The notes beneath the pieces were generated by a model. It searched no databases. It was not told the origin of the DNA and saw only the letters and a list, made by a program, of their open reading frames with translations. A stretch of 52,175 nt of DNA. Origin: Anaerolineae bacterium. Lineage in GTDB: Bacteria; Chloroflexota; Anaerolineae; JAAYZQ01. The stretch is from positions 1 to 52,175 of the forward strand of contig JAMJFU010000004.1 of NCBI GenBank assembly GCA_023544525.1. The letters are read 5' to 3'. Positions 32,431 to 38,941 of the stretch are shown here, one piece after another. Every line of letters begins with the position of its first letter. Within the stretch, counting starts at the first letter, position 1. The position numbers and the translations under genes are program-made.

Positions 32431-32829
32431 CTAGCGGCGGTCCCGTCTGGCCCGCTTTCGCCTGTCGTCCTCGCGGAACACGAGGCTCAGGATAAAGCTG
32501 ACCACGCTGATCAGCAGCGCGCCCAGGAAAGCGGGCACAAACCCTTCGACGCGAAAGTCGACGCCCAACTGTGCAGCGATCCAGGATGAGAGCCAGAGCA
32601 TGAGCGCGTTGATGACCAGGGTGAATAGCCCCAAGGTCAGGACATTGATCAGGCAGGTCAGCAACTTGACCAGGGGCCGGATCAGCGCATTCACCAGGCC
32701 AAAGATGACGGCTACAAGTGCAACTGCGACCCAGGCCTGGTCCCCGGTGGTCTCGATGCCCGGCACCACGGCTGCGGCCAGGGCCAGGGCGGCAGCATTG
32801 ATCAGCCAACTGATGATGAGTTTGACCAA
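32431..32829 (-). CDS. Phage holin family 4-like (Mycobacterial 4-TMS type) membrane protein
   Basis: 132 residues with four membrane helices. The motif FGLVNALIRPLVKLLTCLIN, followed by VLTLGLFTLVINALMLWLSS, is the signature of this widespread family. The C-terminus is strongly basic (DDRRKRARRDRR). Despite the name, these are chromosomal proteins with no proven holin activity, and no phage genes surround it. The gene stands in a minus-strand run with SHOCT-like genes. Confidence 0.9.
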   Translation of the reverse strand: MVKLIISWLINAAALALAAAVVPGIETTGDQAWVAVALVAVIFGLVNALIRPLVKLLTCLINVLTLGLFTLVINALMLWLSSWIAAQLGVDFRVEGFVPAFLGALLISVVSFILSLVFREDDRRKRARRDRR

Positions 32830-32955: not shown

Positions 32956-33339
32956 TTACTCGACGTAAATCTCGACCCGCTCGCCCCCCTCCGCGTCCTC
33001 CACCTCGATGATCTTGCCCTGCGCCCCGCTCTTGACCTGTTCGATGATGGCATCAAAGTCAAAGTCTTCCAGCTCGGGCGCAAAGCGGGCGCCCATGCGG
33101 GTGCCGACGTCCACCAGGCTCATCGGCAAGTTGACGTTGACCTTGTTCTTGCCGGTTTCCAGGTCGGTGACCCGCACCCGGAACCAGCGGGCGGCGCTGG
33201 GAGCGCCCATCGCTGAAGGCGCTTCCTTCTTTTTCCGCTCGGGCTCCAGGGCGCTCAAGAGCCTGGCACCCTCATCCGCCGTGATCTTGCCCTCCGCGAC
33301 CATGTTCAGGATCTGCATTCTCTCCTCTGTGCTTGCCAT
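32956..33339 (-). CDS. SHOCT-like domain protein
   Basis: 127 residues from the ATG at 33339, chosen because GGAGGAAGAG lies just upstream; a longer frame to 33450 has no such site. Residues 5-32 form the SHOCT-like helical hairpin (MQILNMVAEGKITADEGARL). A charged linker follows, then a conserved C-terminal domain (about 47-127): WFRVRVTDLETGKNKVNVNL, DFDAIIEQVKSG and EIYVE. This last domain also appears, divergent, in the next protein (33383-33991). It is probably cytoplasmic. No function is known for the family. Confidence 0.82.
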   Translation of the reverse strand: MASTEERMQILNMVAEGKITADEGARLLSALEPERKKKEAPSAMGAPSAARWFRVRVTDLETGKNKVNVNLPMSLVDVGTRMGARFAPELEDFDFDAIIEQVKSGAQGKIIEVEDAEGGERVEIYVE

Positions 33340-33382: not shown

Positions 33383-33991
33383 CTAGCCGATATAGATCTG
33401 CACTTTCTCGCCCTTCTCATCATCCTGAACATCGATGAAGAGGGGCTCATTTCTGGATTTCCCCTGGCGTAGAGCGATGATCAGGTCATCTACGCCGGTA
33501 TCCTTGAGCTGCGGCACAAACGGTTGGGCCAGGCGTAGCCCCCAAGCAGCCAGTGTCAGAGGCAACGGCAAGCTGAAAGCGACCTTGTGGCCGTTGCCTT
33601 CCCCTTCGCTGATGCGCAGGTGGAGCCAGGTGGCACTGCGCGTCCACCAGGCGATGAGCATCACCCCCAGGCCGAGGATCATGGGCAGCCAGCCGCACAG
33701 CCGCCAACCGGGTGCTGCCCTGATGGAATAGACGAGACCCATGATCAGTGCACCGGCAACGAGGACAATGCCTCCGGCCATGAGTGGATAGATCCAAAAC
33801 CGGGCCCAGCGGGTCTCTGCCTGTTCGACAGGTGACAAGCTGGGCGAACCGCTCCAGCTGGCCCCTTCAGTCCGAGTTTGAACAGCCTCGGACTCTGCCT
33901 GCTCGAGCGCGGTGAGCAACTGGGCGGCTTCCTCCGCCGTGATCTCGCCCGATCCCAGCATCTCGAGGATGCGCAGCTTTTCTTCTTCCAT
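33383..33991 (-). CDS. SHOCT-like domain membrane protein
   Basis: 202 residues from the ATG at 33991 (AAGG upstream). The SHOCT-like hairpin occupies residues 5-31 (LRILEMLGSGEITAEEAAQL). Two membrane helices follow at about 68-90 and 100-118. The C-terminal part (about 120-202) has LRISEGEGNGHKVAFSLPLP, DDLIIALRQGKS and VQIYIG, clearly related to the C-terminus of the downstream SHOCT-like protein. The two genes look like an ancient duplication in which this copy gained a membrane hairpin. They are 43 nt apart and probably co-transcribed. Confidence 0.82.
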   Translation of the reverse strand: MEEEKLRILEMLGSGEITAEEAAQLLTALEQAESEAVQTRTEGASWSGSPSLSPVEQAETRWARFWIYPLMAGGIVLVAGALIMGLVYSIRAAPGWRLCGWLPMILGLGVMLIAWWTRSATWLHLRISEGEGNGHKVAFSLPLPLTLAAWGLRLAQPFVPQLKDTGVDDLIIALRQGKSRNEPLFIDVQDDEKGEKVQIYIG

Positions 33992-34109: not shown

Positions 34110-35489
34110 TCACTCCCCACTCAAAGCGTCGATGGGCTCCCCCGCGCCTGCCACGGCCAGCTCATACCGCCCTGAGGACGTCTCTGGCTCCTCCAGCACG
34201 GCGAGACCCACCAGGCCACCAGCCGAGACGATGATGCCCGAGACGACATAGATCGAACGCAGGGCTACGATTTCGCCCAGGGCGGCGGCGGCGACCATCG
34301 AGATCAGGCCGGCTGCCGTGGTCAGGGCATTCAAGGCACTGCCCATCCTGCCTCGTTTCAGGTCAGGGACAGCCAGCTGCATCATGGTTGTCAGAGTCGA
34401 TTGGGCAGGCACCAGGGCCACTCCTACGAGCAAGCTGGCCAGCAGGACCATCAGTGGCATGTAGAGGAGCCTCTGGCCCACGGCCATCTCGGCCTGGGGG
34501 AGACCCGGGGGCAGCGCAGGGTTCAGGTTGGCCAGCGAGTACGTGGGGGAAAGCCCGATCAGGGCGAGCATCGCCCCGATGAACACGATGGTCCAGCCTG
34601 CCAACTTGCGCTTGGAGAAGCGCGCTGTCACAAAGCCAAGCATCACGCCACCCAGGGCCATGCCAATGCCCTGGGCTGCATCCACCATGCCGAGCCCTTC
34701 GGCCCCCAGGCCAAAGGTCCGCTGCATAAAGGGCACCCAGATGACATTCATAGCACCCAGACCCAGTTGCACCACGGCCAGGCAGAGCAAGACGCCGACC
34801 ATGATCCGGTTGCCAAAGAGAAAGGTCACCCCATCACGCAACTCGGCCCGCACCGCTGCGAACTCGCTTCCGGCTGCTGCCTGCCTGCCGCTGGTGGTGC
34901 GTGGGACGGCCATGGTAACGATGGCCAAGGCCGAGACGAAAAACGTTGCCGAGTCGACCAGGAAGGCGACGTGGGCGCCCCACAGCCCGATGGAAAAGCC
35001 GGCCAGCGCTGGCCCGATCAGGAGGCCTGCTGTCTGGACGATCTGCATCAGCCCGTTGGCCGCCAGCAGGTGATCCCTCTCGCGGATGATCAGGGGCAGG
35101 ACGGCGTTCTGTGCCGGGAAGAAAAAGCGGCTGACGGAGGACATCAGGAAGGCGACGATATAGTAGATCCATACCTGGTCTGGGGTTTTGACCAACAAGC
35201 ACAGCAGGACCAGCATGCCACGCAGTACATCGGCCGCGATCATGGTCCGCTTGCGGTCCCAGCGATCGACAAACACGCCAGCCACCGGTCCCAGCAGGAG
35301 CATGGGTAGGGCACTGGCCATGACGGACAGGCCCACCTGCAGCGCTGATCCCGTCAGCCGTTCCACCATGATTGGAATGGCCAGCCAATAGAAGTAATCG
35401 CCGACGAAAGAGATGGTCTGGCCAAGCCACAGGGCCAGGAAACTTCTATTGCGAAAAAGCTGCCGGTAAGGCGTCTTTTCCTGTTCCAC
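34110..35489 (-). CDS. MFS transporter (macrolide-efflux/MFS_3 type)
   Basis: 459 residues from the GTG at 35489, which has GAGGAAA upstream; a TTG at 35501 overlapping the previous stop is an alternative. Twelve membrane helices are predicted. The family signature is NRSFLALWLGQTISFVGDY near the N-terminus and, in loop 2-3, GPVAGVFVDRWDRKRTMIAA, the MFS motif A. It is likely a proton-driven exporter of drugs or metabolites. It directly follows the GNAT gene, so the two are co-translated. Confidence 0.93.
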   Translation of the reverse strand: MEQEKTPYRQLFRNRSFLALWLGQTISFVGDYFYWLAIPIMVERLTGSALQVGLSVMASALPMLLLGPVAGVFVDRWDRKRTMIAADVLRGMLVLLCLLVKTPDQVWIYYIVAFLMSSVSRFFFPAQNAVLPLIIRERDHLLAANGLMQIVQTAGLLIGPALAGFSIGLWGAHVAFLVDSATFFVSALAIVTMAVPRTTSGRQAAAGSEFAAVRAELRDGVTFLFGNRIMVGVLLCLAVVQLGLGAMNVIWVPFMQRTFGLGAEGLGMVDAAQGIGMALGGVMLGFVTARFSKRKLAGWTIVFIGAMLALIGLSPTYSLANLNPALPPGLPQAEMAVGQRLLYMPLMVLLASLLVGVALVPAQSTLTTMMQLAVPDLKRGRMGSALNALTTAAGLISMVAAAALGEIVALRSIYVVSGIIVSAGGLVGLAVLEEPETSSGRYELAVAGAGEPIDALSGE

Positions 35490-35497
35490 GAATTTCC

Positions 35498-36514
35498 TCA
35501 AAACCTCTTCTGTAGTGTCAAAAGGGTCCGCATCTCTTCGAAGCCGTAGGTGCGCAGGATCCTCTGCAGCTCTGTCTCCCGCTGGTAGGCCGTAACCTGG
35601 ACCGGCTGAGGTGGGGCACCTGCCAGTTTGTGCAGGGCGCGGCTGATCAGAGCTGCCTCTACCTGTCCAGCATGCTCAGGATGGACCAGCATCGCCAGGC
35701 GATGACCCTGTTGGCGACGGGCTATGATGATCTTTACCATGCCCACGAGTTCTTGGCCGTTAAGGATCACCAGCCGCTGGATCTGCTGCCCTCCGATCAG
35801 GTTGCCCAGCCAGTCTACCAAACGGTTGCCCCAGTCGGGCCAGTACTGAACCCTCTGGATAGGCCGGAACCACTGCTGAGGTTCGGGAATGACCTGTTGA
35901 GCCAGTTGGTAGGTGGCTCTGCCGTCGGCAGGGCGCCAGGCCCGGACCCGGTAGCCCGGCGCGTCGCTGATGACGATGGAGCGGACCTGGTCAGCCACCA
36001 GATCGATCTCGCCGCCGACTTTCTCAAAGCCCAGGCCAGTATACAGATGCCGGGCAGGCGGGTTATCGTGGCGCACCTGGAGCACTGCCGCCTGGGCACC
36101 ATTGGCCCTGGCCTGGTCGATGGCCCGTTCGGTGAGGCGCCGGCCGATCCCCTGGTTGCGATACTCCTGGGCGACGACGACGTTGCAGATGATATAGCGA
36201 CTGCGGCTGCCGGGCGCCCGGTTGAGGTTCACGTTGCCTACGATCTGGCGCTTGTGGCTGATAGCTTCCTCCCAGACGAAACCGCTAAAGGTATCCTGGA
36301 AGGTCGGGTCTGCCTGGGACAGCCACCAGACCAGTGGGGACAAGCGGCCCATCAAGCGCATTTCTCGCAGGGCCGCCCGGCCCCGCTCGTCCATGTCTTG
36401 GGCAAAGGCGTCGGTGATGAGATCGGCGACCTCGCCCAGGTCCCGTACGGGGTCCAGTCGACGCAGCCCGCCCTGCCTCTGGGCGGTCGCCTCGGTTGCT
36501 GCCGTTACGACCAT
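35498..36514 (-). CDS. GNAT-family N-acetyltransferase
   Basis: 338 residues from the ATG at 36514. Upstream ATGs at 36574 and 36547 lie in or before the -10 element, so they are not used. The GNAT acetyl-CoA motif A is VVVAQEYRNQGIGRRLTERA (R/Q-x-x-G-x-G/A), followed by AVLQVRHDNPPARHLYTGLG and FEKVG, the usual motif B. The C-terminal half (about 165-338) is a second, more degenerate acyltransferase-like domain. Its substrate is unknown. Partnership with the MFS gene suggests modification and export of a small molecule. Confidence 0.9.
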   Translation of the reverse strand: MVVTAATEATAQRQGGLRRLDPVRDLGEVADLITDAFAQDMDERGRAALREMRLMGRLSPLVWWLSQADPTFQDTFSGFVWEEAISHKRQIVGNVNLNRAPGSRSRYIICNVVVAQEYRNQGIGRRLTERAIDQARANGAQAAVLQVRHDNPPARHLYTGLGFEKVGGEIDLVADQVRSIVISDAPGYRVRAWRPADGRATYQLAQQVIPEPQQWFRPIQRVQYWPDWGNRLVDWLGNLIGGQQIQRLVILNGQELVGMVKIIIARRQQGHRLAMLVHPEHAGQVEAALISRALHKLAGAPPQPVQVTAYQRETELQRILRTYGFEEMRTLLTLQKRF

Positions 36515-36670: not shown

Positions 36671-38074
36671 CTACTCCAGCGCATCCAGCAGCATCTCGGC
36701 CTCTTCGGGCGTAATCTGGCCCTGCTCGACCATCTTGAGAATGGTCAGGCGTTGCTCCTCCAGCTCGGAGTCATCGGGTGAGGTAGCGACGTCCTCCCCT
36801 TCCCGACCCCAGGCGCCATCCTCGGTCCAGGGTTCAGCCTGTGCCTCTCGCTCATGCCGCCGCTTTCTCCACTCCTGGCGGCGTTGCTCCCTCTCTAGCC
36901 TCCGTTCCAGGCGCTCCTGGTGGCGGGCGGCGCTTTCGACGGCGCGGTCCATATCCCGCTGCAGGCGCTCCATGGCCCGCTCTACCGCCTGCTGGGCCCG
37001 CAGGCCCATGTGCTCCCAGTCCACGCTCTCCAGCTTGACCCGCAGGCGGGAGGTCGCGGCTTCCATCTCATCGGCCACCTGGCGACTGATGGCCTCCAGG
37101 TCGATGGCTTGCAGGCCTTCCTCAACCTGTCTCGATATTTCCTCACCGAAGCCAGCGCCCATCGACTCCGGGCCACCGCCAAGGATGACATTGCCGCGGA
37201 CTTCGATAGCCAGCTCGGCACCGCCTTCGCCCAGGGTGCCAGTCAACCTGCCGTTGCTTCGCTCCTGGTTCTGGAGCGCCAGCGAGGTGAGGATCTTGCC
37301 GCGGGCGTTGGCGGTGACGTGGGCATTGGTTCCCTCTGGCAAGCGCACCGTGGCGTTGCCATCGGCCTGGAAGTGGTAACTGTGGCCCTGCCCGAGACCT
37401 CCGCTTAGCACTAGGTTGCCGCCGATGCGGGCCACTTGGGCACCCCCGTTGAGGTCTTTGGCAATCAGGTTGCCGGCGACCTGGTCCAGCGTCACCGGCC
37501 CGTCGACGGACTTGAGTAAGGCATTGCCGCCTACCCGGTCCACGTCCAGGGCGCCACCCAAGGCTTTGACTTGCAGGTTTCCCCCGATGCGCGAGGCCCG
37601 AACACGGTTCAGGCCCTTGGTCAGCAGGCTGCCGCGCACGTTCTGCAGGTCAGCGTTCTCGACTGAACTAAGGCTCGCGTCGCCATAGACGGTGCCGACA
37701 ACCCGGAGCGACGTGGTGGCGTCGACCTTCAGATTGCCATAGACCTCGGCAAGCAGGACCCTGTCCACGCCCTCGAGTTTCAGATTGCCGCGCACCTGCT
37801 CGGCATTCAGGTCGGCCAGGCCGTCGACCTTGAGATTGCCCTTTGCCTGGCGGATGACGACCGGCAGGGAGCCGGGCACCTGTATCTCACAGGAAACCCT
37901 GGCTGACAGTGCGGGACCAGCCTCTGTCTGCTCAATGGTCAGGTGCTCTTCACGGTCGTCTGGGAGCCGGATCAGCAGTTCCGGTTGGTCCCAGACCTCG
38001 AGCAGGACGTTGCCCGCCATTTCGACGAGGGTCAATTGCTGTGCGTCTTCCAGCGGAATGCGCTGTTCGTACAT
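36671..38074 (-). CDS. Beta-solenoid/coiled-coil protein with C-terminal SHOCT-like hairpin
   Basis: 467 residues. Residues 79-235 hold nine repeats, each opening with GN-L or a close variant (G79, G96, G113, G131, G148, G165, G183, G201, G219). They are spaced 17 or 18 residues apart, as in right-handed beta-solenoids of the DUF4097/bactofilin type. A second beta-rich region runs to about 305. Residues 305-420 are a long charged helix (ERAMERLQRDMDRAVESAAR, then the Arg/Glu-rich RRLEREQRRQEWRKRRHERE). The last 30 residues are a SHOCT-like hairpin (LTILKMVEQGQITPEEAEML). It has no signal peptide. It lies 10 nt after the DUF2089 gene, which probably regulates it. Confidence 0.85.
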   Translation of the reverse strand: MYEQRIPLEDAQQLTLVEMAGNVLLEVWDQPELLIRLPDDREEHLTIEQTEAGPALSARVSCEIQVPGSLPVVIRQAKGNLKVDGLADLNAEQVRGNLKLEGVDRVLLAEVYGNLKVDATTSLRVVGTVYGDASLSSVENADLQNVRGSLLTKGLNRVRASRIGGNLQVKALGGALDVDRVGGNALLKSVDGPVTLDQVAGNLIAKDLNGGAQVARIGGNLVLSGGLGQGHSYHFQADGNATVRLPEGTNAHVTANARGKILTSLALQNQERSNGRLTGTLGEGGAELAIEVRGNVILGGGPESMGAGFGEEISRQVEEGLQAIDLEAISRQVADEMEAATSRLRVKLESVDWEHMGLRAQQAVERAMERLQRDMDRAVESAARHQERLERRLEREQRRQEWRKRRHEREAQAEPWTEDGAWGREGEDVATSPDDSELEEQRLTILKMVEQGQITPEEAEMLLDALE

Positions 38075-38084
38075 GGCTGTCCTC

Positions 38085-38459
38085 CTACTTGGCCTTGAGT
38101 AGCTCTACAGCCTGCTCCGACGAAATGTCCCCGGATGCCAGTTGCTGCAGGATCTGTTTGCGTTGTTCGGGCGAGACCGAGTCGTCCCCTTCGTCGACTT
38201 CGTAGCCAAGGCTGCGGATCACCTCGGTGAGGCGTGCCCGGGCGGTGGGGTAGGACATGCCGAGCTCATCCTGGACCCTCGTCAACTTGCCCTCACAACG
38301 GATAAAGGTCTCGGTAAAAGCCAACTGTTGGGGCGAGAGCTGGTAGAAGCGTCCCAAAGTGAACTGGCCCTCGAGGGCCGAGTCGCAGTTCCGGCAGTGG
38401 AGACGGGTCACCGACATCGTATCGCCGCAGACGGGGCATTTCCCGATGACTGGATACAT
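38085..38459 (-). CDS. DUF2089-family zinc-ribbon/HTH regulator
   Basis: 124 residues from the ATG at 38459, with AAAGGAGG upstream. The N-terminal zinc ribbon is CPVCGDTM (C7, C10) and LHCRNCDS (C21, C24). A helix-turn-helix region follows: FIRCEGKLTRVQDELGMSYP, then TARARLTEVIRSLGY. The tail (about 98-124) is again a SHOCT-like hairpin (QILQQLASGDISSEQAVELL). This is the standard DUF2089 layout, a putative transcription factor commonly next to DUF4097-type genes. That is the arrangement here. Confidence 0.92.
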   Translation of the reverse strand: MYPVIGKCPVCGDTMSVTRLHCRNCDSALEGQFTLGRFYQLSPQQLAFTETFIRCEGKLTRVQDELGMSYPTARARLTEVIRSLGYEVDEGDDSVSPEQRKQILQQLASGDISSEQAVELLKAK

Positions 38460-38519: not shown

Positions 38520-38744
38520 CTAGTGTGAGGGCTGTGGCACGTCGGGAATTTGCAGTGCCAGGCCGGCTTCGGTCACACGCCGGCCCAGGCTGAGCAGCCC
38601 TCGACTCACGCGGGTCAAGAGCCGCAGCCTCCCGGCCGAGATTGGCCGTGCGTGGCGGGGCAGGCTGTTCGAGGCAGTGACAGCCTGTGTTTCGGCCAGG
38701 TGGGCCTTGATGATCGTTTCGCTCAGGCGCCAGTCAGGATAGTG
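38520..38744 (-). CDS. Small hypothetical protein
   Basis: 74 residues from the ATG at 38744; AAAGGAGCATAGGGAG lies upstream. It lies between the strong promoter at 38827-38855 and the DUF2089 gene. The sequence is basic and helical (LRLLTRVSRGLLSLGRRVTE) with no cysteines, signal peptide or membrane helix. No family is recognised. A longer frame to 38855 would start inside the -35 element and is rejected. It is a probable but unproven gene, first in the DUF2089-solenoid operon. Confidence 0.5.
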   Translation of the reverse strand, partial: HYPDWRLSETIIKAHLAETQAVTASNSLPRHARPISAGRLRLLTRVSRGLLSLGRRVTEAGLALQIPDVPQPSH

Positions 38745-38826
38745 CATCTCCCTATGCTCCTTTCCGCAGGCCGGTCCGCAGCTACACAGACCCAGCCCTT
38801 GAGAAAAATTCAAGACTACTTTCAGT

Positions 38827-38855
38827 ATTCTAACATATGGTCTCATTTTTGTCAA
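38827..38855 (-). promoter_or_regulatory. Promoter of the DUF2089-solenoid operon
   Basis: On the minus strand TTGACA (38850-38855) and TAGAAT (38827-38832) are 17 bp apart, inside an unusually AT-rich stretch (38810-38920). Confidence 0.85.
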
Positions 38856-38921: not shown

Positions 38922-38941
38922 GCCAACAACATGTTGTTGGC
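38922..38941. promoter_or_regulatory. 20-bp perfect palindrome upstream of the DUF2089 operon
   Basis: GCCAACAACATGTTGTTGGC reads the same on both strands. It lies about 70 bp upstream of the -35 element, a typical place for a dimeric activator or repressor site. It could also be a hairpin. The gap 38942-39086 shows nothing else supportable. Confidence 0.6.

Follow-up and report, generated by a model that had tools for sequence, protein, structure and literature searches.

A Toastrack (DUF4097) protein with a SHOCT-like tail in a conserved Chloroflexota gene cluster with a DUF2089 regulator

An open reading frame at positions 36671 to 38074 on the minus strand of the window (the whole 52,175-nucleotide stretch of Anaerolineae DNA analyzed here) raises the question of what a long, repetitive protein does directly behind a gene for a DUF2089 regulator. 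A sequence-only reading had described its product as a nine-rung solenoid of the bactofilin or DUF4097 type, joined to a coiled coil and a SHOCT-like tail, and had proposed it as a candidate filament-forming scaffold tied to the DUF2089 protein. The open reading frame is genuine and encodes 467 amino acids from an ATG start. Of 60 related genomes, 22 have Toastrack-SHOCT homologues in conserved open frames, and a family-profile search of the phylum found matches in 186 of 300 genomes, weak ones counted.

Fold and family of the Toastrack protein

Glycines recur at residues 79, 96, 113, 131, 148, 165, 183, 201 and 219, with spacings of 17, 17, 18, 17, 17, 18, 18 and 18, exactly as had been noticed. 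When residues 1-305 were shuffled 100,000 times, nine G[NDS] in a chain at a spacing of 17-18 never came up (the longest chain had four), and 13 of the shuffles contained a chain of at least nine bare glycines. Beyond residue 219 the repeat goes on in a less regular form. An AlphaFold2 model, which the sequence-only reading had named as a check, was made with 56 window and locus sequences as input (mean pLDDT 89.9) and contains the solenoid: residues 1-301 form a single continuous beta-solenoid with a pLDDT of about 98. As the solenoid spans all of these residues and the repeat extends past residue 219, the solenoid itself stands but the count of nine rungs was an undercount. The chain has no signal peptide, as had been read, and no transmembrane segment, the maximum 19-residue hydropathy being 1.06; 80 of 81 homologues likewise stay below 1.8.

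The solenoid runs directly into a helical neck (residues 303-412, with helices at 303-323, 326-347 and 353-412), which is followed by a linker of low confidence at about 413-434 and a C-terminal helical hairpin (435-450/456-466). The neck agrees with the charged helical stretch described earlier: its 60-residue helix is 50% charged and its best heptad frame places only 41% hydrophobic residues at a/d against 30% overall. With so much charge and so weak a heptad pattern, this helix may stand alone as a single charged helix instead of pairing into a firm coiled coil. The tail is indeed SHOCT-like, as PF22746 (SHOCT-like_DUF2089-C) matches above its cut-off (E 1.8e-7, 30.9 bits against 27) over residues 441-467 (36671-36754 with the stop codon, minus strand), and the same domain is present in 56 of 56 scanned homologues.

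In a Foldseek search of the PDB, 4qrk ranked first (E 1.2e-6), followed by 3pet, 3lyc, 4opw (rank 4), 3ljy and 3jx8, most of them PDB entries for putative adhesins. Of these, 4QRK and 4OPW have been named as Toastrack examples (Ravi et al. 2024, PMC11237479). By the model and this search, the protein is a single-stranded beta-helix like 4QRK and 4OPW, with low global TM-scores (0.13-0.25 by query length) and a different number of rungs. In VIA-align, many other beta-helices score as high (Z 11-15), as is usual for a repeat fold, and the family is therefore not assignable from the fold match alone. PF13349 (DUF4097) matches the window protein under its curated cut-off (E 0.0017), 26 of 56 homologues give a DUF4097 match, the strongest at E 3.8e-13, and hhalign aligned the window family to the genome's own DUF4097 protein over residues 163-298 with a probability of 95.5% (E 1.5e-8). 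Together with the rank of 4qrk, these matches bear out the DUF4097-type solenoid of the earlier proposal: the product belongs to the known Toastrack (DUF4097) family. The LiaG model NF049997, which also stands for a DUF4097 beta-solenoid, matches far below its cut-off (E 2.7e-7, 30 bits against 285); LiaG differs in being membrane-anchored (PMC9239133), and no SHOCT hairpin is described for it.

Run against PDB sequences, the family profile gave chance coiled-coil matches only. A match of the neck to the exonuclease VII large subunit (E 0.0099) was rejected as chance coiled-coil composition, since it was seen in just one of 56 homologues. Homologues differ in solenoid length by whole rungs gained or lost, and their only invariant residues are P67, G192 and positions in the SHOCT hairpin. 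This variation, together with invariant residues that are structural or in the hairpin, speaks, on sequence grounds, for a scaffold and against an enzyme.

Bactofilins and the question of filaments

Bactofilins (PF04519) polymerize independently of nucleotides into non-polar filaments, and proteins with this domain are encoded elsewhere in the genome. Like them, the Toastrack protein is a cytoplasmic beta-solenoid, here with regular rungs, and one can picture a cytoskeletal scaffold in which such solenoids stack end to end, the charged neck lends lateral contacts, and partners are brought in by way of the helix and the SHOCT tail. Membership in the bactofilin family is ruled out by profiles, as PF04519 at E 0.01 was absent from all 56 homologues and hhalign gave a probability of 0.3% against the genome's own bactofilin. 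The proposed bactofilin kinship is not supported. The best structural matches are solved relatives from the Toastrack family; that no bactofilins were seen among the Foldseek matches proves nothing by itself. Whereas BacA polymerizes through a conserved C-terminal Phe (PMC12448750), the last rungs of the Toastrack protein (residues 276-301) hold no F, W or Y and, unlike in bactofilins, tail helices sit directly on the solenoid end. With no bactofilin match, no aromatics in the last rungs, a neck on the solenoid end and weak heptads, the claim of filament formation finds no support, and no description of filaments was found among published Toastrack proteins. We regard a filament as highly improbable.

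The gene cluster, its relatives and their promoters

The Toastrack gene is part of a cluster on one strand, in the order leader ORF, DUF2089, Toastrack-SHOCT, GNAT, MFS, SHOCT-2TM, SHOCT-small and 4-TM PF04020 protein. The leader ORF (38520-38747, minus strand) encodes 75 amino acids with an amphipathic C-terminal helix (RLLTRVSRGLLSLGRRVTEAGLALQ) and is preceded by a purine-rich, ribosome-binding-like stretch; its product is possibly a small membrane-surface peptide. Many homologous loci have small ORFs with a similar LGxWLVxxGxxLQ helix ahead of their DUF2089 gene. The DUF2089 regulator (38085-38459, minus strand, start inferred at MYPVIGKCPVCG) consists of a zinc ribbon, an HTH and a SHOCT-like part (PF09862, 2.7e-19; PF22747, 4.8e-14; PF22746, 27.3 bits in a genome search), and the Toastrack gene, the second after the leader ORF, starts 10 bp behind it. 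Next, on the same strand, come a GNAT acetyltransferase of two GNAT-like halves (35498-36514, start inferred from homologues; PF00583 in two stretches, 8.6e-20) and an MFS efflux-type transporter (34110-35501; PF07690, 1.3e-38; TIGR00900, 6.6e-63, below its cut-off). They are followed by the SHOCT-2TM protein S219 (33383-33991, start inferred), with a SHOCT-like domain (PF22746, 2.9e-8), two transmembrane segments by hydropathy and a conserved C-terminal domain, and by SHOCT-small, S164 (32956-33339, start inferred), with a SHOCT-like domain (PF22746, 6.3e-13) and a conserved alpha/beta domain. The AlphaFold2 model of S164 reaches a pLDDT of 80, and its C-terminal alpha/beta domain gave no confident structural match (best Z 4.1); this domain is shared with the SHOCT-2TM protein and has no Pfam name. 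The last gene encodes a 4-TM protein of the YvlD/LiaZ type from a TTG start (32431-32829, minus strand; PF04020, 9.6e-30). PF04020 is the family type of YvlD, the holin-like membrane protein encoded with YvlB in yvlABCD, and also, as a homologue of holins, that of LiaZ.

The 4.5-Mb genome encodes exactly four PF22746 domains, in four proteins, and all four lie in this cluster; they are C-terminal in the Toastrack and DUF2089 proteins and N-terminal in SHOCT-2TM and SHOCT-small. Toastrack, SHOCT-like and PF04020 partners, as in Psp/Lia-type systems, are thus combined in one operon. PspA is absent from the cluster, the genome's two PspA genes being on other contigs (C483 and C504), and no PspC (YvlC/LiaY) gene was recognised in it.

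The cluster is conserved across Chloroflexota. A scan of the genome collection with a SHOCT-region pattern, which bounds its sensitivity, yielded 80 loci from Chloroflexota lineages throughout. DUF2089 lies directly upstream of the Toastrack gene in 65 of the 70 loci with enough flank, and 45 of 50 loci have SHOCT-small (41) or SHOCT-2TM (30) downstream. GNAT and MFS genes are found there in 16 of 50 each. As read from sequence, two loci (L088 and L134) have genes for an ABC-2-type, drug-efflux-like ATPase and permease in place of the MFS pump, and this replacement suggests that export may be the constant function of the cluster. In two others (L059 and L069), three tandem lipoprotein-like genes of about 480-560 amino acids, LysM- and M23-peptidase-like by eye, lie just upstream of DUF2089, an arrangement of a subset of Anaerolineae; similar-sized genes occur in L071 and L076. 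One locus (L056:7432-7809) encodes a stand-alone helical neck with SHOCT domain and without solenoid, adjoining a full Toastrack gene.

A strong TTGACA-TATAAT-like promoter lies upstream of DUF2089 or the preceding small ORF in 61 of 70 loci. In the window, the predicted sigma-70 promoter (TTGACA-17-TAGAAT, 38827-38855, minus strand) has its TTGACA at 38850-38855 and its TAGAAT at 38827-38832. Spacing of TTGA/TCAA half-sites was tested in 53 non-redundant promoters, with tetramers strictly upstream of the -35 box and dinucleotide shuffles for comparison. Pairs at 9 bp were seen 23 times (1.1 in shuffles), at 12 bp 17 times (1.0) and at 21 bp 27 times (0.9). The positions that half-sites mostly occupy are -33, -21 and -12 relative to the -35 hexamer, which itself starts with TTGA, and promoters without any half-site at -33, -21, -12 or +9 make up 47 of 56 controls from other genes as against 19 of 53 cluster promoters. 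The array over the -35 box can be followed upstream of DUF2089 in loci L055-L134, for example L084, L095, L122 and L106. In five-fold cross-validation with the hexamer excluded, 37 of 60 loci had their best site, on either strand, upstream of DUF2089, where about 3% is expected for random positions; AT-rich intergenic sequence inflates this result, and the spacing test therefore weighs more. The array in the relatives' promoters is probably an autoregulatory operator, and its overlap with the -35 box points to a cooperative autorepressor, for which DUF2089, the sole recognised DNA-binding protein of the cluster, would be the candidate.

The window's own promoter is without consensus half-sites and is not the top operator match of its locus, and the half-site pattern is therefore not attributable to the window. 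Its leader contains a CTTGA/TCAAG inverted repeat, and a perfect 20-bp palindrome (GCCAACAACATGTTGTTGGC, 38922-38941) lies upstream of the promoter. The other loci do not share that palindrome; they have various hairpins but no common one upstream of DUF2089. The strict pattern TTGA-N5-TTGA-N8-TTGACA matched 12 times in 121 genomes, never with a detectable gene of the DUF2089 cluster within 1.5 kb; as most of these matches resemble chance coding ones and the pattern is too narrow, no regulon can be claimed.

A possible submembrane scaffold

Ravi et al. (2024, PMC11237479) described SHOCT-like domains at the N- and C-terminal ends of globular domains, Toastrack among them, as well as Toastrack contexts without PspA, and a four-gene Toastrack-DUF2089 context with a proposed relay of membrane signals to transcription. 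The window cluster shares with that context the Toastrack protein and the ZnR-HTH-SHOCT-like DUF2089 protein. It differs in also having the two-domain GNAT, an MFS/ABC pump, SHOCT-2TM, SHOCT-small and the 4-TM PF04020 protein, in the C-terminal position of SHOCT behind a helical neck, and in spaced half-sites at the relatives' promoters. With YvlB (yvlABCD) and LiaX (liaXYZ) it has in common a DUF4097/Toastrack domain with a SHOCT-like part (for YvlB, according to Ravi et al.) and a holin-like membrane partner, such as LiaZ (PMC11601895). In YvlB-type proteins, however, the SHOCT-like part is N-terminal, those operons have a PspC gene (YvlC/LiaY) of the kind not recognised here, and they are controlled by SigW or LiaFSR, whereas control here is presumably by DUF2089. 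The cluster resembles the Toastrack contexts known from work on phage shock and belongs to a known kind of system, in a distinct Chloroflexota arrangement.

By analogy with B. subtilis YvlB, whose two-hybrid contacts are PspA, LiaH and Yvl proteins (PMC9239133), and with LiaX, whose C-terminal domain restrains LiaFSR (PMC11601895), the reading that we favor, with a probability of about 0.55, is that the Toastrack protein serves as a cytoplasmic submembrane scaffold of a membrane-stress and efflux operon, with the SHOCT tag joining the regulator and the membrane partners. The solenoid would offer two long flat sheets for the docking of proteins, the charged neck would act as a spacer between it and the flexible SHOCT-like hairpin, and this hairpin would be the connector common to the proteins of the operon. 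The hairpins may pair mutually or dock on a shared submembrane platform with the 4-TM YvlD/LiaZ-type protein. Direct pairing gets little support from co-variation, since SHOCT domains from one locus resemble each other barely more than mismatched domains do (0.388 against 0.375 for DUF2089 and Toastrack, 0.530 against 0.517 for Toastrack and S164); two pairs are nominally significant, with an effect of about 1% identity, and the other pairs are no different. A disturbance of the membrane would change the binding partners of the DUF2089 regulator and so alter control of the operon promoter, with pump and GNAT as the outputs of the switch. The link to DUF2089 that had been proposed from the sequence holds in the adjacent genes, the conserved pairing and the common SHOCT-like domain; as to who controls whom, either of the two proteins may regulate the other.

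The same adjacency could mean that the Toastrack protein is a dedicated partner of DUF2089 alone, an anti- or co-regulator of anti-sigma-like kind whose hairpin sequesters or presents the regulator, with the membrane proteins merely co-transcribed. The 10-bp gap, the upstream DUF2089 in 65 of 70 loci next to variable GNAT and MFS genes (16 of 50 each) and the SHOCT-like domain in both proteins would fit this, as would the C-terminal domain of Enterococcus LiaX, which restrains LiaFSR (PMC11601895). Yet SHOCT-2TM and SHOCT-small come close to DUF2089 in constancy, with at least one of them in 45 of 50 loci, so that two proteins alone do not account for the cluster, and this alternative is a doubtful one. 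We think it unlikely that the protein is a structural, membrane-protective effector of the Psp/LiaX kind, which would bind phospholipid or PspA where the membrane is damaged, be anchored to the membrane by its hairpin and have no direct regulatory role. Anchoring of SHOCT-like domains to the inner leaflet has been proposed (PMC11237479), PspA and LiaH are among the two-hybrid contacts of YvlB (PMC9239133), and the genome encodes PspA, but a hairpin on the DNA-binding DUF2089 protein suits protein-protein contact better than pure anchoring.

Within the scaffold reading, a more specific version is offered tentatively. DUF2089 would be a repressor, bound cooperatively as an oligomer on the TTGA/TCAA array, whose 21-bp periodicity it would follow, and on membrane disturbance it would leave the DNA for the Toastrack scaffold and the SHOCT-2TM protein as the four SHOCT-like hairpins switch partners. 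Its release would induce the efflux and acetylation functions. The promoter array in the relatives was the least expected part of the analysis.

Common as DUF2089, SHOCT-like and Toastrack domains are, the literature found has hardly any experiments on them beyond Bacillus and Enterococcus. With a compact, conserved set of parts, all SHOCT-like domains of the genome together and a candidate operator in the relatives, a handful of purified proteins and a single promoter would suffice to test directly what SHOCT-like domains bind and what controls DUF2089 proteins. If the partner-switching version is true, the cluster would be a stress switch without a kinase or sigma factor, widespread in Chloroflexota.
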